Shown here: one piece after another, positions 10,472-35,754 of the stretch
Numbering within the stretch: the first letter of the stretch is position 1
Layout of the letters: each line of letters starts with the position of its first letter
Origin: Tricholoma matsutake
Lineage: Eukaryota > Basidiomycota > Agaricomycetes > Agaricales > Tricholomataceae
Reading direction: 5' to 3'
Length of the DNA: 64,000 bases
Assembly: GCA_026075535.2 (NCBI GenBank)
Contig: AP026538.1
Span: 15,136,337-15,200,336 of the forward strand
The notes under the pieces: model-generated
Told to the model about the DNA's origin: nothing
Seen by the model: only the letters and a program-made list of their open reading frames with translations
Database searches by the model: none
Program-made: the position numbers and the translations under genes

Positions 10472-10476
10472 ATTTC

Positions 10477-13301: not shown

Positions 13302-13357
13302 ATTGGTAAGGTCAACACAACCCCCAGCCCCAATGGCTGTTTCCTGAGGGTTGCGGA

Positions 13358-14541
13358 CTATTTTTCCGAGTCCATAGTGTCGGGAACGACAACGGATGCA
13401 TGGGCTTTTGTGGCTTTGGATTTCGGACAGTTTCCTGCTACGTGCCCTTCCTCACCACAGTAGAGACAAAGTCGTTCTCTCATGCGATGTTCTTGTTCCT
13501 CCCCAGTAAGCTTGCCGTTCTTCCCCAACTTATTGGAGATGGACAACTTGGGCTTGTCCCAGGGAGTGTTCTTTGTTGCAGAAGACTGCTGGTTGGAGGT
13601 GTTACTGCAGGCAGAGTTTGAAGAGGCTTTGTTTGTCGACGGGGAAGGACTTTTGGAAGAGTCCTTCTGGCTAGAGTTAGTGATGTTACTGGAATTCTTT
13701 GTTTCAAAATGGGATTCATCTTCTTGCATCCAGTAGATGTCGTCGCTGTCCTGTGCTTTCAAGTGCAGTTCTGCAAGAGTATTGGGTTTACCACCCCAGA
13801 GAACTTCTATGTGAAGCTGGAGCGGAAGACTGCATAAATAGCATTCATGAAGGGCTGCTTTGTTCCAGTTGACCCTAGAAGCTAATTCCCAGAAGTCAAC
13901 ATTATATTTTGTGATATGACCACCTTTCTTTATTGTCAAGTCAGAGAGAGCTTTTTCCGCATCTCCGACTGGGTTGTGCGGGCCAAAGTTACTTTCCAGC
14001 TCGGCAAGGAAAGCTTTGTAGTCCCACATCCAGTGTGTGGAATCTGTCGGGTCATTAAGACCAGGCTCAAACCAACTGAGAGCTGATCCTTTAAGATAAG
14101 AGAGGATAAATATGATCTTTTTCTCATCAGAGGAAAATATGTGCGGACAGTTTCAGAAATGAAGATTGCAGGAGACTAGGAAGTCTCTAAGTTTCTTCAG
14201 ATTGGTGCCATCAAAAGTGTCGGGGTCGCAAACTTTGATTTTCTCAGTCTTGGGTGCATTATTTTGACGAAAGGTGTGGATACTCTCCGAGAGGTTGTAA
14301 AGGACATCTATGAACCTATCCCCTGGGTCAGGGTTTTCCCCCACAGGAGGTTGATCCTCTGGATCATTAGGATTGGGGTCACCCCCATGGCCATCGGGTC
14401 TGCTGGGGGGTCCATCCTCTAGACCAGGATCTTCCAACCTGAAGGGTTCAGGCTGGTTGATGCCCCCTACATACTCAAGTGGAGTTCTTGATCAAAAACC
14501 TTCTGGGTTGGCAGAAGGGTGTGGGGCACGGGTGGACATGA
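13358..14541 (-). pseudogene. Gypsy-1 gag with zinc knuckle
   Basis: Capsid-like segments (FILSYLKGSALSWFEP; FLAELESNFGPHNP; LTIKKGGHITKYNVDFWELA) are followed by a Ser/Lys-rich linker and a CCHC knuckle CLYCGEEGHVAGNC. This is the usual Ty3/gypsy retrotrans_gag layout, about 350 residues. The probable start near 14541 (MSTRAPHPSANPEGF) is followed at once by a stop, and another stop separates NLHF from NCPHIF near 14155. Gag packages the element RNA in cytoplasmic particles in active elements; this copy is broken. Confidence 0.85.
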
Positions 14542-14637
14542 GATTGGCAGTGATTGAAGTGGCACCAGAGAAAAAAGCCAAAGTGACAAAAGCAAGCTAT
14601 GCCATGAGTGTGTTGAAACTCACTCTCATCACCAAGA

Positions 14638-14763
14638 TGGAGACACTGGAGGTGTCTCCTATAGCGATGGTCGAGGCTGCCACTGGGATTGCCTCTCCAT
14701 GATTACAACATGCAGGTGACTACTGACTACCTGATCACGTGACTGCCCAAACCCACTACTCCA
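14638..14763 (-). repeat. Leader segment, copy 1 of an inverted duplication
   Basis: These about 126 bp are repeated in reverse orientation at 28191-28316 with only a few changes. Both copies abut a cut gypsy-1 LTR piece. In the minus-strand element this segment is the untranslated leader just upstream of gag. Confidence 0.8.
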
Positions 14764-15022
14764 CTACCTCACCTGAACTTAACCTAAGTCCCTCCATACT
14801 CCTCCCCATGTTTACCCACACTTTCCCACTCCTACCTCCAAACCTTTGACTTGAAATTAGGACACCAGATGAGGTGAAGGGCGCAGCCTCTTACAAGCTG
14901 AAGCCAAGTCCTTTCCATTTCCCCTTCTGCAGAATGCGCAACGACCCGACAAACTCTTGCTATTATCACCCGCAGTGTCCAATCGGATTCTGACATGTCT
15001 TCTAGGATCAGTTCTTAACAGT
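14764..15022 (+). repeat. Reversed half of the gypsy-1 5' LTR
   Basis: The sequence runs ...GATCAGTTCTTAACA and is the reverse complement of 6537-6795. With 28317-28769 it makes one whole LTR (259 + 453 = 712 bp, against 706 bp for the intact copy). The cut lies at a TAG/CTA shared by both junctions. Confidence 0.85.
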
Positions 15023-15445
15023 ATATATGAACTCACACTTCACTCGTCCCATCCCCCTCTATGACCCCTACCGAGACCCGCCAGTGCACAACAAGAAATT
15101 CCCAATGTGCCAGTACTATTCCTGGGATCTCTGCAATCCAGCGATCCATCCTTTCCAACCCTCAACCCGCCACTACTTTTGGAGTGTCTTCCAGACCCTC
15201 AAACATATTCTGACAAATCAGCTCAGGACTCTCTGACTGTCATTCTCGCGCGCCATGTCACAATGTGTAGCTACGTGTTCTGCTTGCCTCGGAGCCTCTT
15301 AGTCTTTGAATCTCTCATCTCAGCTCCCAGCTACAGTCCCAGCCTCAGTTATAGTCACTAGCCCCAGCACAACAAGCTCCCCAGCTTTCTAGCCAGCAAC
15401 AGTCAATCAGCAAAACAGGTTTACAGCAAATATATAGCTCTACCA
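15023..15445. other. Gypsy-1 5' internal leader, no gene seen
   Basis: The sequence after the LTR terminus at 15022 is pyrimidine-rich and only short unremarkable ORFs are present. No clear primer-binding site (TGG-type tRNA complement) was recognised directly after the LTR. Confidence 0.4.
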
Positions 15446-15735
15446 ATGCCAGGCCCATGGCAAGGCAAACGAAGTCATAAGAAAAAATGGCACGAGAACA
15501 CACTTAGCGTGAATATCACAGCCATAAACACCATAATGGCAGCATCGAGCACAGCAGCACACAACATGAAAATGGCCACGTCAGAACCATTGCCACCCAA
15601 CGATGCTACTACCACAGCTTCACCAGCAAGCAAGATGACATCAAACACAGCTTTATGCATGGCTCCACTATCTACCACAGCAGCCGAAGCTACAATCGAC
15701 ACTATCAATGCTAGCAGTGCAACACGCACCGACAG
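15446..15735 (+). pseudogene. DTQT-repeat ORF, 5' part
   Basis: Starts MPGPWQGKRSHKKKWHEN and runs as a Thr/Ala/Ser-rich chain to ...SSATRTD, where gypsy-2 is inserted. The frame continues across gypsy-2 at 26183 (GATSSTNNK). I infer that it belongs to the inverted 5' section of gypsy-1, where it would precede gag in the same orientation before inversion. Function unknown. Confidence 0.55.
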
Positions 15736-16128
15736 TGTTAGGAAACCACCTAATAAAATTTCATTTTATTTTATTATGTCGAATTATGCTACATGACGCC
15801 AAATGACGCTACACTTTGATAGCATGAGAATTTTATTTTGTATGCATCAAAATGTACACGCATGTACGAGTGCATTGGTAACAACAATGTACAATATGTG
15901 TAACATAGTATATAAACCCCAAATATATGCCTAGGGGACCCCAGTTGTGTTCTCTTAGGTATTCCACCTACGTTTTCGGTGTGAAAGGCCTATCTCAACA
16001 AACTCACCTATTAATAACCCCTCGCATCAAAACCATCAATTTCCCCATCATGAGCACAGATCCCGCCCCCTTCTTGTAGAGAGAACCCGCACGGTCTTAG
16101 CTAGCAGATAGTGGGTGTTGCCCTAACA
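15736..16128 (+). repeat. Gypsy-2 5' LTR (393 bp)
   Basis: Matches 25782-26182 closely. It lacks 8 bp (near 15751) present in the 3' copy and shows scattered transitions, mostly CG to TG or CA, as in GTACACGCATG against GTACGTGCATG. Confidence 0.9.
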
Positions 16129-16617
16129 GAAGAACACAACTTCCCATATCAGTGCGCCTTCTCTTACTTGCACATACGTCATTGTTTCACTGTGCCACAT
16201 CTGATTACTCATCCTTTTGGCACGAGCCAGAAGTACTTGTATATATGTAATCCACCTTTTCTTTCATAAGCTGACGCCAGGCCTCGCCTTACATTGCAAC
16301 CACCAGTGATCGAGAGGCAGCGCTCATCATTAGGACAGCTGCAACCAGACAACCGATTGGATCTGGTTTAGTTATGATTTACATTACTCTATTCGGATGA
16401 CTATTTTAGTTACAAGCTGAATTCAGTGTTATCTCCGAGATCAGGCACTGTTGGAAAGGTTATTGATCTGAAGTGTCAAAATAGGCGCCTGACGAACGAC
16501 AAATGATTGACGAACGATTGACAAACCATATCACGTGACCTGTAAACGTTTGGAGAGGTTTCGAAGAACAAGTCTTGAAATTGTTGAAGAAGTGACTCAT
16601 CACAGATTTCACAATTA

Positions 16618-16781
16618 TGTCTGAACCTTCAACTTCTAATCCCGGTCCTAATCCTGTTCCCATACCAGCACTAGAGGTGAAAATTGATGCGCTCACAGCG
16701 CAAATGTTGCAATTAGTGTCAGTATTGGCAGCATCACAGCCCAGACAAGCAGAAGTACAGCCAGAGACAATAGGAGAAAGA
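16618..16781 (+). pseudogene. Gypsy-2 gag, N-terminal part
   Basis: ATG at 16618 opens MSEPSTSNPGPNPVP, a Pro-rich start followed by a short helix (IDALTAQMLQLVSVLA). Element B cuts the frame after ETIGER. The frame resumes exactly at 19265 (DDEMEEMVE) when B and one TSD copy are removed. Confidence 0.8.
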
Positions 16782-17011
16782 CAGTACTTTACAGTCCCCT
16801 ACCTGTCCTAGTGGACTCCGACCGGACTGACCAGAGTCCACTGGAGTCCAAGTGGAGTCCGAGTGGAGTCCAATTGAACTACACTAAGTCATGTAGAGTT
16901 CAATCCCCCATTGGAGTCCGAGTGCAACCAAATGATAAGTCAATTGGATATGAGCTCAAAGGACTTTGGACTTGGTGAATTTCATAAAGTACCCACAAAA
17001 TAAATTTGTGT

Positions 17012-17096
17012 ACTGCAGGAATTGAACTCAAGACCTCACCATAAGGAATCACATGACAAACCAAACAAGTGTGCTCAACCACTTGAGCCACAGGAG
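17012..17096 (-). promoter_or_regulatory. tRNA-like sequence, outward facing (B left)
   Basis: Minus strand: box A within TGGCTCAAGTGGTTGAGCAC (complement of 17071-17090), then box B GAGTTCAATTCC (complement of 17018-17029) about 45 nt downstream. It resembles the left tRNA-like sequence of element C. It points to the left TIR. Confidence 0.7.
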
Positions 17097-17127
17097 ATTC
17101 ATTGGGGATCAATATAAGGTTTATTTA

Positions 17128-17824
17128 TGTCACGATCCATTCCTCGCCTGCTCGGAACCCGCAACCTTCCGATCTTTTCTGCTGTTCCTAACTCAACTCC
17201 TATTGCCTTCATTCCGGCCCCCTTGCACTGCCCACACTGCTGTGCACCAGGCTGCCGTGTACAGCAACCATGGCTGCCTTCCAAGGCTGCCATCTAGTTT
17301 TGCAAATTTGACTACGGATTCCTGTGTGGCCTCCGCTAGGCAATTTAGCTATGCAGTTGAGACACTGCCGCAGTTTCTGTTTCCGTTCCGCTCTTGTTCC
17401 GGACTCTAGTATTTAAGCTTAGTTAGTTTCGCTTTGTATTCCTCAGTTTGTATATCGACATAGACTCGACTTTACCCTGTCAATCTAAAACCTCCTTCTA
17501 CTCCAACTCCTGACCTCTAAGAGTCTGAACTCCATTTGACTCAACCTCTAGTTCCCCTCTGAAGTTCTAGTCTCATCTGAACTTAACCTAAGTCCCTCCA
17601 TACTCCTTCCTGCATTTACCCGCACTCTCCTGCCCCTATCTCTAAAACCTCTACCTGAAATTAGGACACCAGACGAGGTGAAGGGTGCAGCTTCTTACAA
17701 GCTGAAGCCAAGTCCTTTTTGTTACCCATCCGCATAATCCGCTACGACCCGACAATCTTCTGCTCTCAAAGACCCGCCGGGTCCGACTGGATTCCGACAA
17801 GCCCTTTTGGATCAGTTCTTAACA
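17128..17824 (+). repeat. Solo LTR of the gypsy-1 family inside B
   Basis: Runs from TGTCACGATCCATTCC to TCAGTTCTTAACA, 697 bp, with 5-bp TSD ATTTA on both sides (17123-17127, 17825-17829). Orientation is opposite to the LTR at 6537-7242. It shows the gypsy-1 family was still active after B had inserted into gypsy-2. Confidence 0.9.
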
Positions 17825-17886
17825 ATTTATGACTCAACTTTTCATATTCTTCGAGGAGGCATTTTTCAAACAATGAAGATCAAAAA

Positions 17887-18050
17887 TTTTTAATTAACCA
17901 CATCCCTCGTGTAGGACACGAGGGAGTGGGTATAATATAATAATAAACAAAAAAAAACCCCTCTCGCAAGATGCGAGGGGGGGGGGCAGAGATAAATCAA
18001 AAATAATAAAGACCCCTCCCCACACAAAATGCAGGGGAGGGGGGGTTGGG
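17887..18050. repeat. C-rich/G-rich hairpins of B
   Basis: Three successive imperfect palindromes: near 17901 (catccctcgtg...cacgaggga), 17956 (acccctctcgca...tgcgagggg) and 18012 (cccctcccc...ggggaggggg). They are A-tract spaced and match the equivalent blocks in A (5866-5955) and C (33962-34075). Confidence 0.6.
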
Positions 18051-18128
18051 GGATGTGGTCTGGGGTGGGTGTCATCGCCCACCCCTCCTCGCATGCATCC
18101 ATCGCTGTAGCAAGCCGCACCCATCATC

Positions 18129-18382
18129 CACCCTACGAGCAGTTGCTTGTAGGCATGGGGATGGGTGCTGTGGTCATCTTATCCCTGGTGTGCCCACCAT
18201 CTACCCGACGAGCAGCTGCTTGTCAGCATGGGCTCTCACCACCCATCCACCCTGCAAGCAGAGGCTCGCAGGCATGGGGTGGGTGTGTTGTCAGCTTTGG
18301 GGGGTGCTGGTAGGCATCATCGTCGACTGCACACACTCACGATCCACCCTACAAGCAGTGGCTCGCAGGCGTGGGGTGGGTG
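18129..18382. repeat. GCGAGCAG-type hairpin array of B
   Basis: Four copies of a palindrome of consensus CCACCCTRCRAGCAG-NN-GCTYGYAGGC-TGGGGTGGG start at about 18129, 18199, 18247 and 18346. The spacer sequences differ while the stems are kept. Further copies lie in A, C and E1. Confidence 0.65.
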
Positions 18383-18429
18383 TGTTGGCTCGTTTGCGAG
18401 TGGTGTTGTCATTACTAGTAGAGTATAAC

Positions 18430-18530
18430 CTAGAAAACTAAAAAAACGAGTTAGTTAGTTTATAAAAACAAAAACCAAGCAAAAAAAACTTACATAAGGC
18501 CCAAACAATGCAGATCATGTCATTTGGGCC
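18430..18530 (-). other. Hairpin/intron module 1 of B
   Basis: A GGCCCAAA-stem hairpin (18498-18530) is followed on the minus strand by GTAAGT, eight T, ACTAACTAAC and a CTAG acceptor (intron-like 18430-18493, 64 nt). It is tandemly duplicated with module 2 at a period of about 150 bp. Confidence 0.6.
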
Positions 18531-18579
18531 CGTGTTGGCTCGTTTGCGAGTGGTGGCATCGTTGCCAGTAGATTATAAC

Positions 18580-18682
18580 CTAGAAAGCTAAAAAAACAGG
18601 TTGGTTAGTTTATAAAAACAAAAAGCAAATGAAAAAAAACTTATGTAGGGCCCAAACGATGCGATCTGCATCATTTGGGCCC
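18580..18682 (-). other. Hairpin/intron module 2 of B (donor altered)
   Basis: The hairpin GGGCCCAAACGATGC with one stem mismatch (18648-18682) abuts ATAAGT instead of GTAAGT, so the donor is lost or was never functional here. The T run, TTAGTT-type branch region and CTAG acceptor remain. Confidence 0.5.
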
Positions 18683-18921
18683 GCATTCCATCCATTGGGC
18701 TTGTTTGTGGGAGGTGGTGATGGCGGATTGGGCATGGGAGCAGTGGCAGTGGGTGTCCATGCAGTGGTGGTGGTAGAGAGAGGAGGGAGGGAGGTGGCCG
18801 TCGATGATGGTGGTGGTGGTGGTGGTGAGTGATGAGCTGGCACATTTGATGATGCGGCTATATGCTTTGTCATACACAGCCGCACACAGTACCTAGCACA
18901 AGTAGATGATACCTTAAACAA

Positions 18922-19003
18922 GGTACTGTGGTGTAATGGTTATATTGTGTGTTATGATTACATAAGCAACCGACAGGGATCTGGGTTCGATTCCTTTTCT
19001 TAC
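18922..19003 (+). promoter_or_regulatory. tRNA-like sequence, outward facing (B right)
   Basis: Box A in TGTGGTGTAATGGTTATATTG (about 18927-18947) resembles the D-arm of tRNA-Gly or tRNA-Glu; box B GGTTCGATTCC (18984-18994) is canonical. The spacing is about 45 nt. It points to the right TIR, mirror-image to the left copy. Confidence 0.75.
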
Positions 19004-19264
19004 ACAATTTTTGAGCGGAATCCAACTGGACTCCAACTGGACTCCAACCAGACTCCAACTAGACTCCAACCGGACTCAACTGGACCAGTCTGAATGGAAT
19101 CTGGTGTTTGAGTGGATTCCACTCGGAGTCCAGTCGGACTGGACTGGGACTGGACTGGCAACTTTGCAGGCCCAGTGGACTGCAGTCAGACTCTGGTCAG
19201 ACTCTGGTCAGTCCAGTCGGAGTCCAATGGGAAAGGTGGGGGAGTGTAAAGACCTCGAGAAAGA

Positions 19265-20150
19265 GATGATGAGATGGAGGAGATGGTGGAGTAGATATCA
19301 CGGGAGGATGAGATAGCAGAGAAATCCAGAAATGGAAAAGTGTGCTTACCTAAGTATGCACCCCCACAAATCTTTGACGGTACCATGGAGAATACAAAAT
19401 CCTTCATCAGCTCTATAGTATTGTACATCCATGGGAGGAAGCCAGAGTTTTGTACAGCTGAGTCTAAAATTATGTTTGCTCTCTCATACATTCAGGGGGG
19501 GAAAGCACAGTTCTGGAGAAACGAGGCTATTAATCAAATTGCCATGGGAAATAAACCATTTGCAACCTTCAAGGAATTTCTGGAGAGATTGGAGGCACAG
19601 TTTGGAGACCCTAATCCAAAGGCGACAGCCAATGCTAAATTAAAGACCATGCGCCAAGGTTCCCTAACGGCGGATGAATTTATTTTGCAGTTCAAAGCAG
19701 AAGCTTCGCAAATGGACATGGGAGAAGCCACATTGGTAGAGTTTTTGAAAGCAGGATTAAATCCCTCCTTATTCAAGTCTATCTACCGACTACCTTCTAT
19801 GCCAGAGAAATTGGACGAGTGGTATAATTGGGCAATGTGCCTTGACCGGCAATATCAGCAGGAACAGGCGGAGTCAAAGTTGATGTATGGAAGTAGTAAA
19901 TTTGGAAAGTCATCAGGAGGAAAGTCCGAGAAAGGAAAGGCGCCTCAGGCACAAGCTCCAAGGGCACAACCACTGGCCATGGCAGTGACACCTATAGTTA
20001 CAGAGTCAGCAGCACCAGCAGAGGCAATGGAGGTTGATCAAGCAGGGAGATGAGCTCCACTTAAATGTTTTAACTGTGGGCAGTTAGGACACATTTCTAG
20101 GAATTGTAGGCAGAAAAAAAGATTAGGGAAGCTACAATCGAGGAAGTGAA
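19265..20150 (+). pseudogene. Gypsy-2 gag, C-terminal part
   Basis: After a stop near 19307 the frame carries YAPPQIFDGTMENTKSFISS, GGKAQFWRNEAINQI, FLERLEAQFGDPNPKATAN and ADEFILQFKAEASQ, a Ty3/gypsy capsid, then a Lys/Gly/Ala linker. A TGA at 20051-20053 precedes the zinc knuckle CFNCGQLGHISRNC. Its N-terminus lies at 16618-16781 across element B. Confidence 0.85.
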
Positions 20151-20192
20151 GCTGGAGGAAGGCAAGCAGAAGAATTTTGTGGAAGAGTCCCA

Positions 20193-20471
20193 GTGAAGGT
20201 TTCCCCATTGGTGACCCAGAATCATTACAATGTATTAGTATCCAAGGAAACCCAGAGTAAATCAGAAAAGGAAATTGAGGAGGAGTACAACTGTTGCGAA
20301 TCACGTGACAAAGAAAATTGTCACATGTCATTTCTGAAAACCCCTAAATTCTTTATTCGCTCTGCACAGATAGAACCCAAAATCACCTTGACTGTGGGAT
20401 TGAAGACAGTGGACATGCATGCAGCTATTGATGTGGAAGTGTTGCTTGATAGTGGTGCTACAGGATTATTA
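20193..20471 (+). pseudogene. Gypsy-2 protease, first part
   Basis: Acidic linker (SEKEIEEEYNCCESRDKEN), then FFIRSAQIEPKITLTVGLKT and the catalytic motif LLDSGATGL near 20445. The frame breaks at the insertion starting around 20472 and resumes as FINRSLITGNGINTRKL after 20803. Confidence 0.8.
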
Positions 20472-20802
20472 CCTTGCTTGCAAGGTCTCTCCACCCAACA
20501 ATAAGCTGTGTTGTGCATTTCACAACATGTACAAAGCCTGGTCCTTCCACCGGTGTATTGACACATGCCAATGACATTCAAAAAACACAGTGAATCCACC
20601 TCCTCCTACTGTGGTGCCTGACATTTGGTGGTTGGGGAACAGTTGTACAAATGTCAATTTGTCCATTTGCCAGGTAACATCACACTACGAGATGTATTCA
20701 GAAGCACTAGCTACAGCTACAAAAACGTCATCGGACCACTCACGTGCCAGTTCAGACACCGAATAAGCAAGGTTTCCGCCGTTGCTTGCGACAGCACCTA
20801 GT
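20472..20802. mobile_element. Small insertion in gypsy-2 protease (about 330 bp, type unknown)
   Basis: The protease reading GATGL-FINR is split by about 330 bp with no similarity to gypsy. It begins near CCTTGCTTGCAAGG and ends near GTTGCTTGCGACAGCACC. TTATTA lies on both sides, but the target is itself a T/A repeat, so the TSD is ambiguous. No clear terminal repeats or ORF; the class is not identified. Confidence 0.5.
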
Positions 20803-23800
20803 TTATTAATCGATCCTTAATTACTGGAAATGGTATTAACACACGCAAGCTGGTGCAACCTATAATGGTGTACAATATTGACGGAACAGTCAATCATGGA
20901 GGAACTATCAAGGAGGAGGTGACTATGGTACTAAAGTATCAGGAGCATCAGGAGCGAGCTGTATTCGAAGTGTGATCTTGGGAAAACCAATCTAATAATA
21001 GGATGTCCGTGGTTACGGAAGCATAATCCTGAAATTGATTGGAAAACTGGGAAAGTACAAATGACTCATTGTCCTAAGGAATGTAATGTGTATGGGAGGA
21101 AGATGAAGAAGGAAAAAAGGAAAAAGAAAGAGAAAGAACATCCGAGAAAGTATTCTGTTACGATGGAGGAAGTGGAGGATGAGGAAATGCCAAATGGGGA
21201 AGTTCCGATCATGATCAAGAAAGAAGAGCAGAAGCAAACCTTTAGAGCAATTCATGGAGGACAGTCATGGGACAAGAATATTGTGAAGGTGGAGAAGCCA
21301 GTGGAGGAATGGGTGCCAAAAGTGTATCACGAATATCTGTCAGTGTTTCAGAAGAAGGAGTCTGAGTGAATGCTGGTGCGGAAGCCATGGGATCATGCGA
21401 TTGAGATGAAGCCAGGGTTTGTGCCGAAGAAGTCAAAGGTATATCCATTATCTCCAATGGAACAAGAAGAAGTTGATGTGTTCCTGAAGGAGCAATTGCG
21501 CAAAGGATATATATGACTTTCGAAATCACCACAGACATCACCAATATTCTTCGTGCCAAAGAAAGACCAAAGGAAGAGGATGTGTACAGATTATAGGTAT
21601 CTGAATGAGTGGACAACAATGTACAAATAAAGAAAGGAGATGAGTGGAAGGCTGCATTTGCCATGCGTCGAGGATCCTTCGAGCCGCTTGTCATGTTTTT
21701 TGGGATGACTAATAGTCCCCCGACCTTTCAAAATATGATGAACAACATTTTCAAGGACATAATAGACAAAGGCATGGTAATAATATTTATTGACGACATT
21801 CTGATATTCACAGAGGATGAAGAGAATCATGAGGCGATAGTGCAGGAGGTGCTACAGAGGTTGGCAGAGAATGATCTATTTTTGAAACCAGAGAAGTGTG
21901 TGTTTGGGGCAAGCGAGATTGAGTTCCTAGGATTATTGATAGCCCCTGACGGAATCAAAATGGATCCGATCAAGGTACAGGCGATCACAGATTGGCCTGC
22001 ACCCACCTGTGTCAAGGAGGTTCAAGCCTTCTTGGGACTCGCAAATTATTATTGTCGCTTTGTGCACAATTTTTCTAAAATTGCCACACCCTTACATAAC
22101 CTTATGCGAAAGGGAGTAGTATGGAGGTGGGGAGAGCGGCAGCAGACAGTGTTTGAGGAGTTGAAGAGGAAGTTTGTGGAGGGACCAATATTAGCCCCAG
22201 TAGATTTCACACACCCTTTGCGAGTGGAATCCAATGCATCCGATTTTGCTACTGGAGCAGTATTATCAATGCTGTGCAAAGATGACAAATGGCATCCTTG
22301 TGCATACTTGTCAAAAGGGTTGAATGATGTGGAGAGGAATTATGATGTGCATGACAAAGAGATGTTGGGGATAATATGAGCATTGGAGGCGTGGAGGCAT
22401 TATTTGGAGGGATGTATGCATCAGATTGCAATCTGGATGGATTATCAAAATCTGCAATACTTCATGTCTGCTAAAAAGCTTAATTGCCGGCAAGCATGTT
22501 GGGCACTATTCCTATTGCGTTTCAATTTTCACTTCTTCCACAAAGCAGGAAGCTTAATGAGGAAAGCAGATGCATTATCCAGACATATCGATCATAAAAG
22601 GGGGGTGGAGGAGGACAATAAAAATGTTACCTTGCTCAAACCCGAATACTTTTGCATTTGTGCTATGTGTCAAGGGCATCTATTAATAGATAGCTTGGAA
22701 ACAGAAATGTTGTCTAAAATTAGACAATGTTCAGAAATGGACAATGAAGTAGTGGAAGCCGTGAAAGCTCTGAAGGGAGAGAAGAAAGGTAATATCAAAG
22801 GAGATGAATGGGCTGAGGAACAAGGGTTGGTGTTGTTTTGAGGAAAAGTGTATGTACCGAAGGATCAGGATTTGCGAAGGGAGATCGTCCAGTTACATCA
22901 TAATACGCTGACTGCTGGACACCCAGGAAGATGGAAGATGTTTGAATTAGTAATGAGAAATTATTGGTGGCCCAGAATTTCGAAGTATGTGTTGGGGTAT
23001 GTGGATGGATGTAATACATGCATGAGGGGAAAGAAATTTCCAGAGAAACCTCCATGAAAATTAATGCTGAACCCTATACCTAAAGCGCCATGGCGAGATA
23101 TATCTGTGGATTTTATTACCGGATTACCCGAGGCTCAAGGGCATGATGCAATATTTGTAGTATGCGACCACTTTACAAAGGAGGTCCATATTATTCCTAC
23201 TACTACAGAAACCTCATCATTGGGCTTGGCACGCCTCTATCTAAATCAGGTATAGCGGTTACATGGGTTACCCGATACTGTTATCTCCGATCCTGGACCA
23301 CAATTTGCTTCCATGTTTATGCGAGAACTAAACAACATATTGGGAATTCAAACTAAATTATCTACAGCATATCACCTGCAGACTGATGGGCAGACAGAGA
23401 GAATGAATCAGGAGTTGGAGCAGTACCTACATATGTTTGTCAACTACTGACAAACTGACTGGCCCGAATGGTTGGCAATTGCCAAATTTTCCCACAATAA
23501 CAAATTCCATTCGGCTACTCGTATGTCACCCTTTTTCGTGAATTATGGATATCATCCTCGCATGGGAGTAGAACCCAGAAGGGAAGTCAAAGTACAGTCG
23601 GTAGAAGACTTTGTATCTAAGATGCAAAAGGTACAAGAGGAAGCAGAGGCAGCATTGAAGAAAGCACGTGATGACATGATGCAACACGCGGATCGTACTC
23701 GAGCACGCGCTCCAGAGTACAAAGTTGGTGACTTGGTATGGCTAAGTACCAAGGACCTGAATATTCCATGACCTTCGAAGAAACTTACAGAGAAACAAGT

Positions 23801-24176
23801 TGGCCTATATGCGATCTCTAAAGTAATCTTGCCTAATGTGGTAGTGCTAAAATTACCCTGATCATTCAAGATTGATCCCGAGATTAATGTATCCCGCCTA
23901 TGCCCTTACTGCCCGCTTACTATCCCTGGCCAACAAACTACTCCGCAACCTCCAATAATAGTAGAAGGTGCTCCACAATACATAGTTGAAGAAATTCTAG
24001 ACTCACGTCTTTGACGGAACAAATTGGAGTTCTTAATAAAGTGGAAAAACTATACCGACGAAAATAATTTGTGGGAACCCGAAGAGAATTGTAAGCAAGC
24101 ACGTAATGCAATCACCCAATTCTTTAAACGTAATCCAAATGCTCCGTGTTGCATTGCGAGAATGGTGTATGAGGGG
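20803..24176 (+). pseudogene. Gypsy-2 pol: protease end, RT, RNase H, integrase, chromodomain
   Basis: RT includes KAAFAMRRGSFEPLVMFFGM, NSPPTFQNMMNNIF and FIDDILIFT (catalytic DD; normally YLDD). RNase H: VESNASDFATGAVLS, HDKEMLGII, DYQNLQYFM. Integrase: HHNTLTAGHPGRWK with CNTCMRGK zinc pair, [22 protein letters not shown] in a shifted frame, [17 protein letters not shown] and chromodomain follow (IVEEILDSRL; FLIKWKNYTDENNLWEPEEN). Stops occur at many sites. E1 enters after RMVYEG; the gene end, MKFWPYQNF, lies beyond it at 25690-25770. Confidence 0.88.
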
Positions 24177-25687
24177 TAGTGTTTTAAGGTCCGGTTCAGT
24201 CCAGTTTTTCGACCCCAAGATGGGCAACCAGTTGCAACTGGTGCCCAACTTAGGGCAACTGCAACCGAACCGACTAGGACCGGTCCTAGTCAGTTCGGTT
24301 GCCCTCGAAAAACTGGTTGCCACCGGTTTTTCCAGCAATTTTCAATACATATTTTAATTTTACTATATATTAAATACAACTAATTACAACACACCCTGCG
24401 AGCAGGTGCTTGCAGCGGTGGGGTGTTGCTAATAGAAAGAAAGAAAAAAAAAGAGCGAACAACACCTGTAAGGTGCATCTATCACAACGAAAGAAAGAAA
24501 AGAAAAAGAAAAAAGAACCCACAGACTCACGTTTGCAGTGAGAGCGGGGCGTCGTACGTTGTCCCGGGTATTCGTTATGGTCAGCCCCATTGTTCGTTGT
24601 CCCTGCATTGTCATTTGTCATCCTCATGTTGTCATCCATCATCCCCATGTTGTTGTCCCCATGCTGGCGTTCGTCGTCTCCTCCCTGTTGCCACGCTCCT
24701 GTTTGTGCTGTCATTGTTGTCTTCTCCCTGTCATCCTCCCTGTTCATGTTCTTGTTTGTTGTCCCCCCATGGTTGTCAGCACCTCCATCTACCCCTGCAA
24801 GCAGTGGCTTGCAGGCGGGCCGGTGGTGCTGTGATGTGGCAGCACGGTGGCATGGTGGTGCTGTGATGTGGCGGCGTGGTGGTGCTGTGACATGGCAGCG
24901 CGGCGGCATGTTGGTGCCACATTGTTGTGTCATTGTCATCGTCCAGAAACGGGACCCGTTGCCACCCTGCGAGCAGAGGCTCGCAGCGGTGACATAGGGC
25001 ATGGGTATGGTGAGGGCCCAGGTGCGTTGCGTCATGTCTAGGCGACGTCGTTTGCAAAAGAGACACTACAAAAAGAATTATTAGTAATTGAAATAAGATT
25101 AAACAAAAAAATCATACCCGACAGCCCAAACGATGCTGGTCGTTGTTTGGGCCATCTGCTTTGCATTCGTTTGTTGGCGGTGGTTTTGGGGCAGGTGGTG
25201 TGCATGTGTTGATGGTGGTGGGGGACGGATGGGATGGGAGTTGTGGGAGTTGTTTGTTGTCGTGGGAGTCATCTGGCAATGGTGCCACTTTTCTTTTTTT
25301 CAGGAGCACATGACCACATGGTCTGTGCACAGCCACAGGGTATATAAGTACCCACCAAATAACTACCCCGACTTGTCCCACTGCATGTAATTGTAGTTTA
25401 ATGTAGTGTAACCGTATGATAAATAGTTATGATTAGTACTTATGTTAGTTATAATTTCTTACTTCTAAGCAGGTATATAGTACATTGTATATACTGCGAG
25501 AAAACCGGTTGCAACCGATTGCAACCGGTTTTGTAACGGTTTTTAAATATTTTCAAAACAAGGCAACTGGCAACCGGACTCAGCTCAAAAGTAAGCAACC
25601 GCAACCGAAAAATGGACCGGACCGTGTGTCGGTTCAGTTCGGTCTTCAGTCTTTTCCCGGTCCTATGGACCGGACCTTTAAACACTA
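24177..25687. mobile_element. TIR element E1 (hAT-like ends) carrying the hairpin module
   Basis: Ends TAGTGTTTTAAGGTCC and GGACCTTTAAACACTA are inverted repeats. The 8-bp TSD ATGAGGGG lies at 24169-24176 and 25688-25695; removing E1 restores the gypsy-2 pol end (VYEGMKFW). GGTCC and CAACCGG motifs repeat at both ends. The middle has GCGAGCAG hairpins at about 24391, 24783 and 24965 and one GCCCAAACGATG hairpin/intron module. No transposase ORF. Confidence 0.9.
25066..25153 (-). other. Hairpin/intron module of E1
   Basis: The GCCCAAACGATG hairpin (25124-25153) is followed 6 nt later on the minus strand by GTATGA, seven T, TTACTAAT and a TTTGTAG acceptor (intron-like 25066-25117, 52 nt). It is the same module as in A, B and C although the element ends differ. 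Confidence 0.6.
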
Positions 25688-25781
25688 ATGAGGGGATGAA
25701 ATTCTGGCCTTACCAAAATTTCACAGAGGGGACAAACGTAATATTTTCTCACCTGGAAGTCGAGGCATAAAAGGGGGGTAA

Positions 25782-26182
25782 TGTTAGGAAACCACCCCAT
25801 TACCTAATAAAATTTCATTTTATTTTATTATGTTGAATTATGCTACATGATGCCAAATGACGCTACACTTTGATAGCATGAGAATTTTATTTCGCACACA
25901 TCAAAATGTACGTGCATGTATGAGTGCGTCGGTAACAACAATGTACAATATGTGTAACATAGTATATAAACCCTAAATATATGCCTAGGGGACCCCAGTT
26001 GTGTTCTCTTAGGTATTCCACCTACGTTTTCGGTGTGAAAGGCCTATCTCAACAAACTCACCTATTAATAACCCCTCGCATCAAAACCATCAATTTCCCC
26101 ATCACGAGCGTGGATCCCGCCCCCTTCTTGTAGAGAGAACCTGCACAGTCTTAGCTAGCAGATAGTGGGTGTCACCCTAACA
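25782..26182 (+). repeat. Gypsy-2 3' LTR (401 bp)
   Basis: Starts TGTTAGGAAACCACC directly after the AAAAGGGGGGTAA polypurine tract and ends GTCACCCTAACA. Pairs with 15736-16128. Confidence 0.9.
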
Positions 26183-28055
26183 GACGGAGCCACATCGTCA
26201 ACAAACAACAAAACCTTGCAATCACTACCATTCACCTACAGCCATGAAGAAGTACAGCAGCTTCTAGAAGATGCACAGCTCGAAGGTTGGCAAAGAGGAT
26301 TTGAAGAAGGATATGGAAAAGGGAAAAAAACAGGCCGAGAAGAAGGAAAATAGGGCGGTTATGCAGAAGGATACAGGGAAGGAAGTAAGAAGTGGGTAGA
26401 AGGCTACGAGGAAGGTCACAGTGCTGGATGGAAGATGGGAAAGGAGAAGGAAGAGGAGGCACAAAAGAAAGGTCAACGAGAAGGCTATGAACAAGGAACA
26501 CAGGATGGGAAGGACGAGGAACAACAGAAGTGGTTAGCGGAAGGACATGGACCTGGGCTATGTGCATTGGCACAACGATGCAACCAAGAGGCCAAAATGA
26601 ACAATGACAACAGCGAGTCAAAGGAGAGCACATGGAAGCACAGGTATGGGCACTGCATATTGGTAGAGGAAGGACATCTGAGGCTCATAACGGAGGTCAC
26701 GAAGGCTATCGTGTCAGAGGAGGCCAAACCAACCACCTGGAGCAACACTAGCACCCAGACCGAGGGCAGTACCACCATCGATGCTGACACCCAGACCAAT
26801 GCCACCACCACAGTCAATATTGACACCCAGACAACACCCACCACCACTACCACTGTTGATGCACACACCCAGACCGACATTGCCACCACCATTATCATCA
26901 ACACCCAGGCATTCCCTCACACTTGCGAGGCAGCAGTACAGGCCTACAACGACCACCAGGATCAGCTCCTAGCCCCAGAACTGAGCTCGGAAGGAGTCGA
27001 GCCCCCCCTACTGTCACAGATCAAGACGCCGCCAGCTCGTATGGAATCCAGAACCCAGACTGAGGATACTACCGCACCCACTGTAGATGTCAATACCCAG
27101 ATGGACACCATTGCCATCGCCATTGCCCTCACTGTCAACGTTGACACTCAGACAACCCCCACCAGTTCCACTGTCGCTGACGCCAGTGCTCAGACAACCT
27201 ATGAACAAGCCACCAACATCACGCAGACTGATCCATTGAATGTTGAATGTCCCCATCAGGCAAGGAAATAGCATGAGAGGAAGGATATAAGAGAGGGAAG
27301 AAAGAAGGGTTCGAAGCAGGAGTGGATGCAGGTCTTGACATGGGTGAGGAATGCAGAAGGAATAAGGAAAGGATAGAGTGGAACAAGTACCATGGGCCTG
27401 ATATCTGTGTATGGACGCAGGTAGAGAAGACCAATGAGGCAATGCAGACGGAACCCCCCTTGCTGATGGAGTTGAACACACAGACTGCCACACAGATGAA
27501 GCCCCTCAACGACGAATGTCCTTGTTTGACGGACCCGACTCCCCCAGTTACTGCAAGAGTTCCAGAGCTCTCGCTCTGCCCTTCTACATGATGAAACACC
27601 TGAACCCCCACTAACAGATCCTGTTGTTACCCAAGTACCTGCAACATTGACAACAATACCGCCCTGCACATCTTGACTGGGCAGAGGATGCTGAGTCAAT
27701 ACCCATCATCTATAAGCCACCATGAGATCTTTTGGCACTGCGCCCAAGTATTCCCTGCCCCTTTGCAACATTGCAACGACGTGCTCACCAATGCGCCATT
27801 GTCCATCAGAACTACCCATCACGTGCTCGTACCATCGATTGGAGTGCTGTTTATTCAAGACCCAATGTTGTTACATGCCAACATCCTTCTGGTATCACAC
27901 CTGGAAAGCCCATTGTCATGATTCCATCAGGTACCCAGCCTCAAACACCGGTTTCTCAGAATGTGGCAGTACCACAACTTGACTGGGATGGAGATCCTCG
28001 ACTAGTGGACTTAGGTCGTGCTCTTCGTGCATTGGGATGGGCACCTATGTGTTGA
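26183..28055 (+). pseudogene. DTQT-repeat ORF, 3' part
   Basis: Continues the 15446 frame. The first block is a GYxxG-type repeat (FEEGYGKGKKTGREEGK, GYAEGYREGSKK, GYEEGHSAGWKMG, GYEQGTQDGK) with one stop near 26353. The second block has about ten DTQT/TQT units (IDADTQTNATT, NIDTQTTPTT, DAHTQTDIATT, VNTQMDTIA, VDTQTTPTSS). After frame changes a conserved-looking end follows (IDWSAVYSRPNV, LDWDGDPRLVDLGRALRALGW) to a stop near 28055. I do not know its function. The unit spacing suggests an extended, low-complexity protein. Confidence 0.55.
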
Positions 28056-28190
28056 GTCTCTTTTTGTTATAATTCTTTTGTTTTTGGCATTGCATTGCTA
28101 CATTATTTTTATACCTATTGTTTTGTTTTCTTTGTTTGTTTGTTTTCTTTCTGAGGCGACGGGGACGTCACCACTTGGGAGATGGGCAGA
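28056..28190. other. AT-rich spacer, no gene seen
   Basis: T-rich segment (TTTTGTTTTCTTTGTTTG) followed by GAGGCGACGGGGACGTCACC. It leads into the duplicated leader; no feature is supported. Confidence 0.4.
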
Positions 28191-28316
28191 TGGAGTAGTG
28201 GGTTTGGGCAGTCACGTGATCAGGTAGTCAGTAATCACCTGCATGTTGTAGTCATGGACAGGCAATCCCAGTGGCAGCCTCGACCATTGCTATAGGAGAC
28301 ACCTCCAGCATCTCCA
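28191..28316 (+). repeat. Leader segment, copy 2 of the inverted duplication
   Basis: Reverse complement of 14638-14763 with few changes. It abuts the forward half of the split LTR with TAG at the junction. Confidence 0.8.
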
Positions 28317-28769
28317 GTAGAACTTCAGATGGAGACTAGAGGTTGAGTTGAATGGAGTTCAGACTCTTAGAGAACTGAGGTTGGAGTAGAAGGAGGTTTA
28401 GATTGGCAGGATAAAGTTGAGTCTATGTTGATATATGAACTGAGGAATACAAGGCAAAACTAACTAAGCTTAAATACTGTAGTCTGGAATAAATGCAGAA
28501 CAGAAATGAAGACTGTGGCAGTGTCTTGACTGCATAGATAAATTACCTAGCGGGAGCCGCACAGGAATCTGTAGTCGAATTTGCAATAGAGACGGCAGCC
28601 TTGGGAAGGCAGCCGTGGGTGCTGTACAAGGCAGCCTGGTGCACAGCAGTGTGGGCAGTGCAAGGCAGCTGGGAACAAAATTGGGAGGCATAGACAAATG
28701 TCAGGTTCGACGTGCGGGAAAGGGTTGGATGGATGCTGGTTCCGATTGGGTGAGGAACAGTTCTTGACA
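28317..28769 (-). repeat. Forward half of the gypsy-1 5' LTR
   Basis: Matches 6795-7242 from GAACTTCAGAGGGAGACTAG to CAGTTCTTGACA and is followed by the TSD CCCGC. Its missing part is at 14764-15022. Confidence 0.85.
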
Positions 28770-28841
28770 CCCGCGAGCAGCTGCTCACAGCAGTGGTTCT
28801 GAGTGCTCGTCATTGTTATCGTCAGCAGTACTAGATAATAC

Positions 28842-28922
28842 CTAAAAAAGTTTGTTAGTAACAAAAACAAGAAAAAAAACCTACCAATGGCCCAAGAGAC
28901 ATCAAATGACATCTCTTGGGTC
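28842..28922 (-). other. Hairpin/intron module A right 1
   Basis: Imperfect GGCCCAAGAGACATC stem (28889-28922), then minus-strand GTAGGT, eight T, a perfect TACTAAC branch motif and TTTTTTAG (intron-like 28842-28884, 43 nt). Confidence 0.6.
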
Positions 28923-29189
28923 TTTTCTTTGTTTGCTTTGCCTTCCTTTCATTGTTTCCCACTCGTCCCCTCGTCATTCCATCTCCCTGTCCCAGTCATC
29001 TCCAGTCACCTCGTTGCATTGTTGTTCTGTTTGGCCAAGTCGGCATCGCCGTTGTCTTGCCATTTTGCAGTTGTACCCATTCCCACTCTGCAAGCAGTTG
29101 CTTGCAGCGGTGGTTCTGGGTCCTAGGGTGGTGGCTGTGTCAGCCATTGTGGTTTTGAGGCTGCAGTGTCGTTATAACATAGATAAAAC

Positions 29190-29289
29190 CTATCATTAAG
29201 GAAATTTCAGTTAGTTAAACAAAACAACAAAAATCATGTAAAAAAACACTTACAAGTGAGCCCCAACAACAATGCAGTTGTTTGGGCTC
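29190..29289 (-). other. Hairpin/intron module A right 2
   Basis: GAGCCCCAACAAC stem with one mismatch (29258-29289), then minus-strand GTAAGT, seven T, TTAACTAAC and a GATAG acceptor (intron-like 29190-29253, 64 nt). Confidence 0.55.
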
Positions 29290-29423
29290 ATTCCCGTTCT
29301 TGGTTATTGGGGTAGGAGGTAAGGAGGAGGCGGCGCCGTTGCCAGCATTGTTGATGATGCGGCTGTGTTGATTTGTCATCACAGCCGGGGTGGTACATAG
29401 AGAGATATAACTACTTACCTGTA

Positions 29424-29508
29424 ATGATGCTTTAGTCTAACTGTTATATTGCTGACTTAATTGTACTTTATCATGTGACTATGAGGGTTCAATCCCTGTG
29501 GTAGCCAC
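29424..29508 (+). promoter_or_regulatory. tRNA-like sequence, outward facing (A right)
   Basis: Box A-like TTTAGTCTAACTG (29431-29443) and a perfect palindromic-type box B GGGTTCAATCCC (29485-29496), about 42 nt apart. Points to the right TIR of A. Confidence 0.65.
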
Positions 29509-29699
29509 AGATTTTTCAGTCAATTATATAAGCAACTCAGACGCTTGGACAGTCTGAGGACTCAGCTCGGACTCAGCTTGGACTGGACATTTAGTTTGGC
29601 AGGACTTTCAGCCAAAGAAGTCCAAGCAAAGTCTGAGCAAAGTCCAAGTGTCCAAGAGGAGTCTGCTCAGATTGGGGGGGGGGGAGTGTAAAGACCTCA

Positions 29700-33270: not shown

Positions 33271-33517
33271 AACTGAACCGAAGTCCGGTTTGTCAGGTGG
33301 CTATTTATAGGAATGGTCTTTTGCAGTCCAGTTGCCAGTCTTTTGCTTCAAAGAATATCATCAAACGAATGAAAACTGGTTTATATGTCATGTAAGCTAT
33401 TTCCCCCGATTTCCACACATAATGCCTTCAATTTTGCTCCATGGATCATCAAAAACAGTTGAGAACTGAGAGAGATATCAGTAATTTACACTCCCCCACC
33501 TATTCCAATTGGACTCT

Positions 33518-33655
33518 CTGGAATCCAGTTATTCTGACTGGATTCCACTGGAGTCCAGTTATTCTGACTGGATTCCACTGGAGTCCAGTTATTCTGACTG
33601 GATTCCACTGGAGTCCAGTTATTCTGACTGGATTCCACTGGAGTCCAGTCATTCT
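33518..33655. repeat. 30-bp subterminal tandem repeat of C
   Basis: Unit TTCTGACTGGATTCCACTGG plus 10 nt (AGTCCAGTTA), about 4.5 copies at an exact 30-bp period. Inverted partial copies of the TGGAnTCCA core recur near the right end (35008-35210). Confidence 0.85.
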
Positions 33656-33789
33656 GACCGGATTCCAGTTATTCCAGACTCCAAGTTATGCATGTTTAGT
33701 TTAATTAACTTACAGTATACAACAGTAGAAAGTCAAGTCAAGTCAAACTTTGAGTCCTGAAGTTCCTCAGTTGCCTACAAAATTAATTG

Positions 33790-33866
33790 GTGCAGAGCAA
33801 GGATTGAACTCAAGGCCTCATGTGATAAACCAAACACCATGCTCAACCAGTTGAGCCACAGGAGAA
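33790..33866 (-). promoter_or_regulatory. tRNA-like sequence, outward facing (C left)
   Basis: Minus strand box A in TGGCTCAACTGGTTGAGCAT (complement of 33839-33858) and box B GAGTTCAATCC (complement of 33801-33811), ending CTCTGCACCA, which looks like a retained tRNA 3' end with CCA. The best tRNA-like copy in the window. Confidence 0.75.
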
Positions 33867-33961
33867 TTATTAACTAGCTATTATAAAGTTTATTTCTGAC
33901 ACACAAACTCACAACTCCATTTTTTCAAAGTAGATAATTAAGATCAAATTTTTTAAAATTT

Positions 33962-34245
33962 AAGCCCATCCCTCCCCCACAGACAAAATGGGGGAGGGGG
34001 AGGTGTAATAATATTAAATAATTAAAACTACAAAAAAAACCTCCCCATGCGAAATGCGGGGGAGGGGGAGGGGATGCGACCCTGCTGTGCTAGGTGAGTT
34101 GTCTGTCATTCCACCCATGATCCACCCCATGAGCAGTTGCTCGTGAGGCTGGGGGCAGGTGGTGTGTCGTCGTCTCCTATCCGGGCACCTAGGCATCATT
34201 CCACCCATGTTCTGCCCCATGAGCAGTTGCTCATGAGGCTGGGGG
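33962..34245. repeat. Hairpin arrays of C
   Basis: CCCTCCCCC/GGGGGAGGG palindromes at about 33966-34002 and 34040-34072, then ATGAGCAG-NN-GCTCATGAGG palindromes at about 34121 and 34204. Same order as in A and B. Confidence 0.6.
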
Positions 34246-34541
34246 TGGGTGGCTTGTCGTTGTTTCTCGCCATCATCCCTGTTTGGATTTCTGTCTTTTT
34301 TTGGGGGGGGGGGGAGGGGAGGGGTTTGGGCACATCAGTGCGATGTGGCGGATGTACGGGGGTTGGTGGGTGCTTACTAGGCAGGTATCCCCCTTCTGGG
34401 GTCTCCTGGCATCCCTCTGCACCCACCTAGCCCGTGTCAACAGCCTCACATCCCATTTGAAAGGTGAGGAGGGGATTGGGTGGCTGTGGGCATGTGTTGA
34501 GCATTTTTCGTTGCAGCAGGTCATCCCCAGTAGTATATAGC

Positions 34542-34641
34542 CTATATAGCAATAAATTACAATTAGTTGATTTATAAAAAGAAAAAGAAAAAAGAAAAAA
34601 ACTTATCTATGGCCCAAACAACAATTGCCATCGTTTGGGCC
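34542..34641 (-). other. Hairpin/intron module of C (donor altered)
   Basis: GGCCCAAACAAC/ATCGTTTGGGCC hairpin (34611-34641) followed on the minus strand by ATAG|ATAAGT, T-rich sequence, CAACTAAT and a TATATAG acceptor. The donor GT is AT here, as in B module 2. Confidence 0.5.
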
Positions 34642-34901
34642 TGCATTCCATCCAGTCGGCTCATTTGAAGGTGGTGGTGATGGTGGCAGTGGGCATGGGA
34701 ATGGTGGTGGCAGGTGCACACACAGTGGTGGTGGTAGAGTGGAGAGGAGGAGGAGGCAGCATTGATGACGGTGGTGGTGGTTGTGAGCTGGCAGTCACAT
34801 GTCACATGTAATGCAATATGCATGTTTGCATATTCCGTTAATGGCTGTAACCATGCACCTTGGTTGGGTAATAAAGGTATTAGATGTATGTAGACAAATA
34901 A

Positions 34902-34980
34902 TTACTTGGTAGCTCAGTGGTTAAGCATGCTGTTATGTGTGCAGACCCAAGGTTGAGTGTTCAATTCTTGTTGCACATCA
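34902..34980 (+). promoter_or_regulatory. tRNA-like sequence, outward facing (C right)
   Basis: TAGCTCAGTGGTTAAGCATG (34910-34929) is a strong D-arm/box A match; box B GTGTTCAATTC (34957-34967) is slightly off consensus. Points to the right TIR. Confidence 0.7.
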
Positions 34981-35754
34981 AAATGTTATTTGGAAAAGCA
35001 CATGCATTCCAGTTATTCTGGTTATGCTAGTTGCTGTGCATCTGGTTGATCTGACTGTTCCAGGTAAAAATGAGTCCAGGTAGATTCCAGGGATTCCAGA
35101 GGTAAAATTGACCCTCCAGTCCGATCAGAATTATGAATTGTGAGAAAAATATATGTAAATCGAATTCCCTGGAATTCCAGAAATTCCGATTGGAATGGGC
35201 ATTCTGACCAGAATAGGTGGAGGAATGTAATGTACTCAGAGATATGACCAAATACATTTTGCATGAGTATTTTGTTGTGATTAAAATAACTTTGATTGTA
35301 CTGCTTATACCTTGTGTTACAAAATTGTTGGGTACAATTGGACACCATCCAAGACATAAAAATAACACACATAAACATCTGTACCATGTATCTTTGATTA
35401 ATTTAACACCCCTCACAAGCTGCAACTACATACTACAACTACAACTACAACCTACAAACTACAACATGTAATACAATATACTTTTGTTTTGGTCATATCT
35501 CAGTCAAATCTTGATGAAATCTCTTAAACTTTAGACCAGTTGCCGGAGAATTATGATATCCAACTGCTGGTGTAACCGTTAAATGGTCCGGGTAATAGTT
35601 GCTGAGAAACATATGGGATATATTGGTACAACAAATTTTACAAGAAAAAGTCGGTTTGGACTGGTTTTTACTGGTCCATGGACCAATATGGACCGGTCCT
35701 ATGTGGTCCAGTTGCAGTCCATCAATATCTGGGTGTTGAAATTAACCCTGAGAT

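Follow-up and report, generated by a model that had tools for sequence, protein, structure and literature searches.

Divergent tRNA-like Pol III promoter modules in the arms of terminal inverted repeat elements of Tricholoma matsutake

Pol III promoters in mobile DNA and the closest described systems

Among mobile DNA, Pol III promoters have been described in elements that depend on an RNA template, i.e., SINEs and the retrotransposons Cassandra and Helenus. SINEs combine a tRNA head at one end with a retroposon tail and are flanked by duplications of variable length. The LTRs of TRIMp3 retrotransposons (Cassandra, Helenus and Ajax) end in TG...CA. By design, the TRIMp3 group is closest to the three elements (A, B and C) that we describe here from a 64,000-nt stretch of T. 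matsutake DNA (referred to as the window). TRIMp3 elements (PMC10886601) are likewise short and non-autonomous and carry a Pol III promoter from a small-RNA gene in each terminal part, with a kept A box (TRGCY..YGG) and B box (GGTTC). The same paper describes them as LTR elements with direct repeats, in which the promoter makes the RNA template, and gives 5-bp duplications for one Helenus family (PMC10886601), whereas A, B and C have inverted ends, 8-bp duplications and opposed promoters of differing sequence, and no RNA intermediate is expected for them. The LTR direct repeats and 5-bp duplications by which Helenus and Cassandra are recognised were not found in A, B or C, which by class are DNA elements with terminal inverted repeats (TIRs). 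A Helenus-like element is present elsewhere in the T. matsutake genome and contrasts with A, B and C.

Other described systems share single features with these elements. The modules have an A/B-box head of tRNA origin in common with tRNA-derived SINEs, but there is no terminal head; instead, two opposed modules lie inside an element with TIRs and 8-bp duplications, so that A, B and C do not qualify as SINEs. MER6, a mariner MITE joined to a piece of a V-SINE, is a TIR element with SINE material; it differs in that the single SINE piece has lost the head module and hence has no promoter (PMC6887750). Dada transposons are likewise DNA transposons tied to small-RNA genes, but they target tRNA and snRNA genes and make 6-7 bp duplications (PMC3706591), while A, B and C hold the module inside and their insertion sites vary. 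Non-autonomous hAT and Zisupton-like (KDZ) elements share TIRs and 8-bp duplications with A, B and C, and both domain types occur in the genome; 8-bp duplications are made by Zisupton and usually by hAT elements (PMC12730594). In the titles and abstract openings searched, outside Repbase and most subscription journals, tRNA modules were not described in hAT or Zisupton elements, and no DNA transposon was described as carrying Pol III units in both of its arms.

Elements A, B and C and their copies in the genome

Element C occupies positions 33479..35237 of the window (1759 bp; elements and duplications are given without strand). Its ends, CAGTAATTTACACTCC...GGAATGTAATGTACTC, are common to many copies, and it is flanked by an 8-bp target-site duplication (TSD), AGAGATAT, at 33471..33478 and 35238..35245. 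Element B (16782..19256), a TIR element with the ends CAGTACTTTACAGTCC...GGAGTGTAAAGACCTC, is flanked by the TSD GAGAAAGA at 16774-16781 and 19257-19264 and, judged by eye, sits inside a Gypsy-like gag frame. Element A (5481..29698) has the termini CAGTACTTTACACTCC...GGAGTGTAAAGACCTC and a near-TSD, i.e., GTTTTATG at 5472-5479 and ATTTTATG at 29699-29706, which match at 7 of 8 positions with one extra base on the left. Its 24.2 kb include nested insertions, i.e., element B and retroelement-like frames (the latter recognised by eye); as A-type modules elsewhere are about 1.5 kb apart, most of this length is probably inserted DNA. A frame with a PIF1-helicase match lies to the right of A.

The inverted repeats extend over 52 nt (88%) in B (repeat I1) and 26 nt (85%) in C (repeat I15), and left and right TIRs within an element aligned with z-scores of 13.8 (A), 13.8 (B) and 7.9 (C). 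The C family was represented by 41 loci, i.e., 40 fetched loci and the window copy; the copies examined throughout are top-scoring, often near-identical and therefore dependent (loci L010 and L011, for example, share flanks). Both ends were recognised in 27 C loci, among which an exact 8-bp TSD was present in 19 and a TSD with at most one mismatch in 21. Comparison of the flanks showed that C insertion sites vary and led us to reject a TA target duplication in favour of one of 8 bp. The longest ATG frame of C (121 aa) starts outside the element, and a scan of one frame per strand of C (two of six frames) found no Pfam match. With TIRs, a fixed-length TSD and no transposase of its own seen, C has the characteristics of a non-autonomous, MITE-like TIR DNA transposon. 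Taken together, the three elements represent TIR DNA families that have diverged from one another and share 8-bp target duplications.

The genome searched for further copies comprised 13 contigs with 161,040,721 bases. A 22-base C end motif had 171 exact matches and a 19-base A/B-type right end had 941 (reversed controls, 0 for both); the latter number indicates an abundant group. The A/B right module pattern, i.e., box B followed by T5, had 398 exact matches genome-wide, again with 0 for the reversed control. Along contig C1 up to 12.29 Mb, 29 of 41 modules had an exact right terminus on the same strand within 700 nt downstream, while a terminus on the opposite strand occurred within 700 nt of none of the 41; under random placement, such module-terminus couplings numbered 0.11 on average and never more than 2.

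Box motifs, stop signals and resemblance to tRNAs

Both strands of the window were scanned with an A box (TRGYNNARN(N)GG) and a B box (GGTTCRANYCC) representing the generic eukaryotic consensus, which was chosen independently of these sequences. Only four pairs in the window stayed within a total of one mismatch, i.e., those of the left and right arms of A and B, whereas 20 dinucleotide shuffles yielded 0.3 such pairs on average and never more than 1. In the left arm of A, box A (5769..5780, minus strand) and box B (GGTTCAATTCC, 5708..5718, minus strand) both match without mismatch; in the right arm, box A (29433..29444, plus strand) has one mismatch and box B (GGTTCAATCCC, 29486..29496, plus strand) has none and is present at all 10 loci examined (L083-L092). 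The left arm of B carries box A at 17079..17090 (0 mismatches) and box B at 17018..17028 (1 mismatch), both on the minus strand, and its right arm carries box A at 18929..18939 (0 mismatches) and box B, GGTTCGATTCC, at 18984..18994, both on the plus strand.

Both arms of C were reached at two mismatches, where the window has 23 matches, many of them overlapping (shuffle mean 3.95, maximum 10). At three and four mismatches the window (63 and 179 matches) was not clearly above the shuffles (means 40.1 and 195.2). The C arms of the window alone are thus weak evidence for the boxes, and the case is carried by the C copies. Among the 41 C-family loci, 40 have a right arm and 34 a left arm in which an outward box A was recognised. 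The exact generic A box occurs in 33 of these 34 left arms, and 39 of the 41 loci have it in the right arm. In the left arm, the 12 nt of box A (TGGCTCAACTGG, 33847..33858, minus strand) are identical in 31/34 arms, and box B (AGTTCAATCCT, 33800..33810, minus strand), which has two mismatches to the generic box, is present in 34/34. In the right arm, the 16-nt region of box A (TAGCTCAGTGG, 34910..34920, plus strand) is identical in 36 of the 40 arms with a box A, and box B (TGTTCAATTCT, 34958..34968, plus strand; two mismatches) is present in 40 of 41. The preliminary description had placed a box pair with a spacing of 40-50 nt in all six arms, directed toward the nearest end; presence and direction held in 6/6 arms; the spacing measured here is 48-62 nt from start to start. 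The C-family arms, the shuffles and the genome-wide patterns with their reversed control show that the boxes recur in further copies beyond background level, and they support the earlier proposal that these TIR elements recurrently include, as an integral part, two divergent promoter sequences of the tRNA type for Pol III.

Box B is followed by a T-run, the Pol III stop signal, at a near-fixed spacing of about 12-17 nt; this applies to the majority of copies in each of the six arm types, so that A box, B box and T-run stand in the order of a type-2 Pol III unit. In the window, a putative terminator (T4) is located at 33779..33782 on the minus strand in the left arm of C, 17 nt after box B; other T4 runs are located at 16997-17000 (B left) and 5691-5694 (A left), a T5 run at 29512-29516 (A right), and in the right arm of B a T4 run (18995-18998) directly follows box B, with a T5 run (19008-19012) 13 nt after the box. 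We counted TTTT within 40 nt of box B, with distances taken from the end of the searched motif. In the C family, TTTT was present in 34/34 left arms (at 16 nt) and in 32/40 right arms (at 12-14 nt); it was absent from the other 8 right arms, including the window copy, where the T-run is broken. For A and B, the counts rest on top-scoring, near-identical copies that are not independent: 10/10 for A right (at 13 nt; loci L083-L092, with L085 being the window's own copy), 4/5 for A left (14 nt), 7/7 for B right (0-13 nt) and 5/5 for B left (17 nt). The background frequency of TTTT per 40 nt is approx. 0.14 for the elements and 0.16 for the whole window. As about 180-300 nt remain between T-run and terminus, an outward transcript would end before the TIR, which argues against the earlier suggestion that the elements transcribe their own termini. 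The left T-runs of the window copies are T4 only and may be weak stops, and readthrough of T4 is possible.

For comparison with tRNAs, we used 25 tRNA loci of the T. matsutake genome, 18 of which are tRNA-Ile according to ARAGORN. Within this set, both C modules matched tRNA-Ile(UAU) best; the right module aligned with it through the D arm, anticodon region and T arm (z of 13.4-14.2 for the best three) and the left module aligned with tRNA-Ile at z of 9.5-10.7. The left module of A had its best match with tRNA-Ser (z = 7.8), and the B modules reached z-scores of 6.2-8.4 (left) and 5.6 (right). The right module of A reached only 3.7-4.1 and is weak as a tRNA relic. The left and right modules of an element had been described as resembling different tRNAs; this applies to A and B (left against right, z of 2.7 and 2.4) but does not fit C well, whose two modules are alike (z = 8.4). 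The GCACCA in which the left copy of C had been said to end is not a conserved CCA end (7 of 34 left arms).

ARAGORN found 0 tRNA genes in the window, and with E-values of up to 10 the Rfam tRNA model matched neither the window nor locus L012, so that neither the cloverleaf nor the covariance-model match of a tRNA gene was found. The RNAs of the six modules fold no better than shuffled sequences (z of -1.03 to 0.69) and thus gave no sign of selection at the RNA level. Resemblance to tRNAs without the tRNA fold suggests that it is the promoter that is kept and not the RNA, and the modules look like tRNA relics of this kind. Matches to miRNA families at 33498-33672 in the Rfam scan were rejected, as they were far below the cut-offs and represent tandem GGATTCC/GGAGTCC palindromes. 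Other tRNA-bearing repeats do exist in the T. matsutake genome. One of them, a dispersed tRNA-Ile repeat, had two weak, one-sided matches to the end motif (L058 and L061) and was considered as a source of A, B and C, as the C modules resemble its tRNA; it was rejected because the repeat is LTR-like and no A/B/C-type pair of ends was found nearby.

To compare the families with each other, each was represented by its single copy in the window, and the pieces of these copies were locally aligned and scored against 300 mononucleotide shuffles, which flatter the z-scores. On the left side, z-scores for the pairs AB, BC and AC were 17.2, 19.6 and 7.1 for the module and 12.0, 10.7 and 10.1 for the TIR, as compared to 1.5, 5.3 and 0.2 for the 100-nt inner flank and 1.8, 2.6 and 1.9 for the 100-nt outer flank. 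The left module and the left TIR thus stand out from the module flanks. On the right side, the corresponding z-scores were 8.5, 3.9 and 3.2 for the TIR, 4.6, 2.5 and 1.6 for the module, 12.9, 1.9 and -1.0 for the inner flank and 2.8, 1.8 and -1.3 for the outer flank; A and B are more alike in the inner flank than in the module, and the right module of C showed no demonstrable homology to those of A and B in these comparisons (z of 1.6-2.5). Independent recruitment or strong divergence of the right modules is possible. As the right side differs in this way, it is the left arms that carry the argument from conservation. Among 38 right arms of the C family, conservation is even along the arm and the boxes are no better kept than the rest, as would be expected after a recent burst; this speaks neither for nor against selection.

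Possible roles of the paired modules

Overall, these data indicate that the units are very probably integral to the elements and derived from tRNAs, and we lean towards the view that selection maintains them in the role of Pol III promoters. In our proposed explanation, each arm holds a tRNA-derived type-2 Pol III unit (A box, B box and T-run), directed outward and located about 180-300 nt inside the terminus. TFIIIC and TFIIIB would bind both arms and Pol III would be recruited, yielding short RNAs of approx. 90-110 nt that stop before the TIR. As no fold of the RNA is conserved, the benefit would be expected to come from the DNA to which the factors bind, i.e., the binding of factors at the DNA level would be what is kept. 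The bound factors would keep both ends open (nucleosome-poor and less silenced) and thereby within reach of a transposase supplied in trans. We assign a probability of roughly 0.3 to this open-ends mechanism in particular.

Several other explanations have to be weighed against it. tRNA genes act as boundary or insulator sites bound by TFIIIC in yeasts, and the modules might likewise be boundary elements that shield the element from neighbouring chromatin and do not aid transposition directly. One outward site near each end, with boxes but no conserved RNA fold, is in line with such a role, and insulator action is listed for SINEs in PMC10886601. An insulator role and the pairing of ends through TFIIIC are close alternatives to open ends, from which sequence cannot separate them; taken by itself, we consider the insulator role unlikely. 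It is also conceivable that Pol III transcripts directed outward continue past the termini and give rise to hairpins or to small RNAs derived from the ends. Palindromic GGANTCC-type repeats abound between module and terminus, so that a readthrough RNA could fold, and the right arms of C that lack the T-run would permit it, but each of the six arm types has, in the majority of its copies, a T-run ahead of the palindromes, which makes this explanation quite improbable.

The modules might also have no function at all, if an ancestral element took up two tRNA-derived pieces (from tRNA genes, SINEs or fragments of Helenus-type LTRs) that were then merely copied along with it. Chimeric TIR elements such as MER6 are known (PMC6887750), the T. 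matsutake genome holds other tRNA-bearing repeats, the boxes of the C family are no more conserved than their flanks, and the right modules are no more alike between families than the sequences around them. Passive copying fits less well with outward modules in all three families, with T-runs in most copies of every arm type, and with left modules and left TIRs that are more alike between families than the module flanks. A SINE donor is not obvious either, because the published T. matsutake annotation has 13 SINE pieces (757 bp) only (PMC10211490). We regard passive copying as rather unlikely. Box-like matches arising by chance in repeat-rich DNA would account for the window counts at three and four mismatches; given that only the A and B arms match with at most one mismatch, and given the recurrence in copies and the genome-wide pattern counts with a reversed control of 0, chance is extremely improbable.

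The open-ends mechanism calls for a transposase acting in trans. The 8-bp duplication of C agrees with a hAT source, although this feature is not specific to hAT. At least 151 matches to the hAT dimerisation domain and at least 165 KDZ matches were found in the genome. Among the hAT matches listed, inspection by eye linked none to A, B or C termini; one listed match, at C7:586389, is found 9 kb inward of a C left end but on the other strand. Among the KDZ matches listed, those at C1:3003942 and C1:14551135 adjoin a C left end and agree with it in direction and strand; with about one such neighbour expected by chance, they were not counted as evidence. A 10.1-kb locus at approx. C1:3001387-3011487 has C-type ends and modules, flanks that agree at 7 of 8 positions (ATTGGTCC and GTTGGTCC) and a same-strand KDZ match inside, which is possibly a nested insertion; by the rough estimate, about one such neighbour is expected by chance. 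A 10.3-kb copy at C3:3753163-3763556 was rejected as an autonomous element, as Copia-like frames were recognised inside it by eye. Because this comparable copy held such frames, nesting must be excluded before the KDZ match at the 10.1-kb locus can be taken as a lead.

Tentatively, we suggest that a cut-and-paste lineage may have evolved Pol III units in both arms that terminate by themselves and are under selection; the right modules would have been recruited or replaced independently, and TFIIIC at both ends would serve access or pairing. Such a Pol III-assisted class II lineage would be the DNA-transposon counterpart of the TRIMp3 elements. The finding would also bear on repeat annotation. 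In the published T. matsutake repeat table, 2,342 copies of "small RNA" repeats add up to 1.94 Mb (PMC10211490), i.e., approx. 830 bp each from these figures, which is much longer than a tRNA. Elements of the A/B/C type could be part of this class, so that the "small RNA" category might include TIR elements of the kind described here. More generally, paired outward promoters of tRNA origin with stop signals are a design that is usual in another class of mobile DNA. As a DNA element needs no RNA template, two kept, outward and terminated units would need another reason, which may be chromatin access, insulation or the pairing of ends.

Subterminal repeats and promoter motifs in the A, B and C elements

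The subterminal region on the left of element C (window 33519-33670) contains palindromic GGATTCCA/TGGAGTCC repeats in tandem, and GGACTCC repeats similar to these are present in the related terminal inverted repeat elements A and B. The subterminal palindromic repeats of all three elements are possible (putative) transposase binding sites.

Among the 41 loci of the C family, a box B was found in the right-arm tRNA-derived module of 40; its core was GTTCAA in 34 loci, GTTTGA in 4 and GTTCGA in 2. These core variants match the pattern that would be expected from CpG decay at a methylated site. In the left arms of A, B and C, inspection by eye also revealed a TATA-like stretch (TTATAT or TATAAT) approx. 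27-30 nt 5' of box A. Fission yeast uses an upstream Pol III element, and the stretch could be a candidate element of this kind.

A separate dispersed tRNA-Ile repeat

Separate from A, B and C, the matsutake genome carries a dispersed repeat (approx. 225 bp) in which an intact tRNA-Ile(UAU) gene and a T-run are located close to the 3' end (e.g., G000:C1:6836960-6837033 and G000:C1:7782788-7783157). The set comprised 21 loci (L054-L056, L058 and L062-L078), a subset of which overlap. In the 11 loci inspected, the repeat starts with TGTTGG or TGTTAG at the 5' end and finishes with AACA or near-AACA at the 3' end, and several of these loci are flanked by duplicated 5-mers (TGGAA in L066, AGAAC in L067, GAATC in L069 and CTTGG in L074). 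In L067 and L069, two copies of the repeat flank approx. 70 bp. Overall, the repeat looks like a Helenus-type TRIM, present for the most part as solo LTRs.

Nested insertions and a KDZ-containing locus

By eye, B (window 16782-19256) lies inside a Gypsy-like gag frame, itself within A (window 5481-29698). A frame with a PIF1-helicase match adjoins A, which is perhaps located within that same gene. Elsewhere, open frames viewed by eye indicate that a Copia-like retrotransposon interrupts a C-family copy (G000:C3:3752932-3763556; L079 and L080).

On contig C1, C-type ends (L130 and L131) and both modules bound 10.1 kb (G000:C1, approx. 3001387-3011487), with a KDZ transposase domain in the interior. 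This locus may represent an autonomous partner or, alternatively, a nested insertion.
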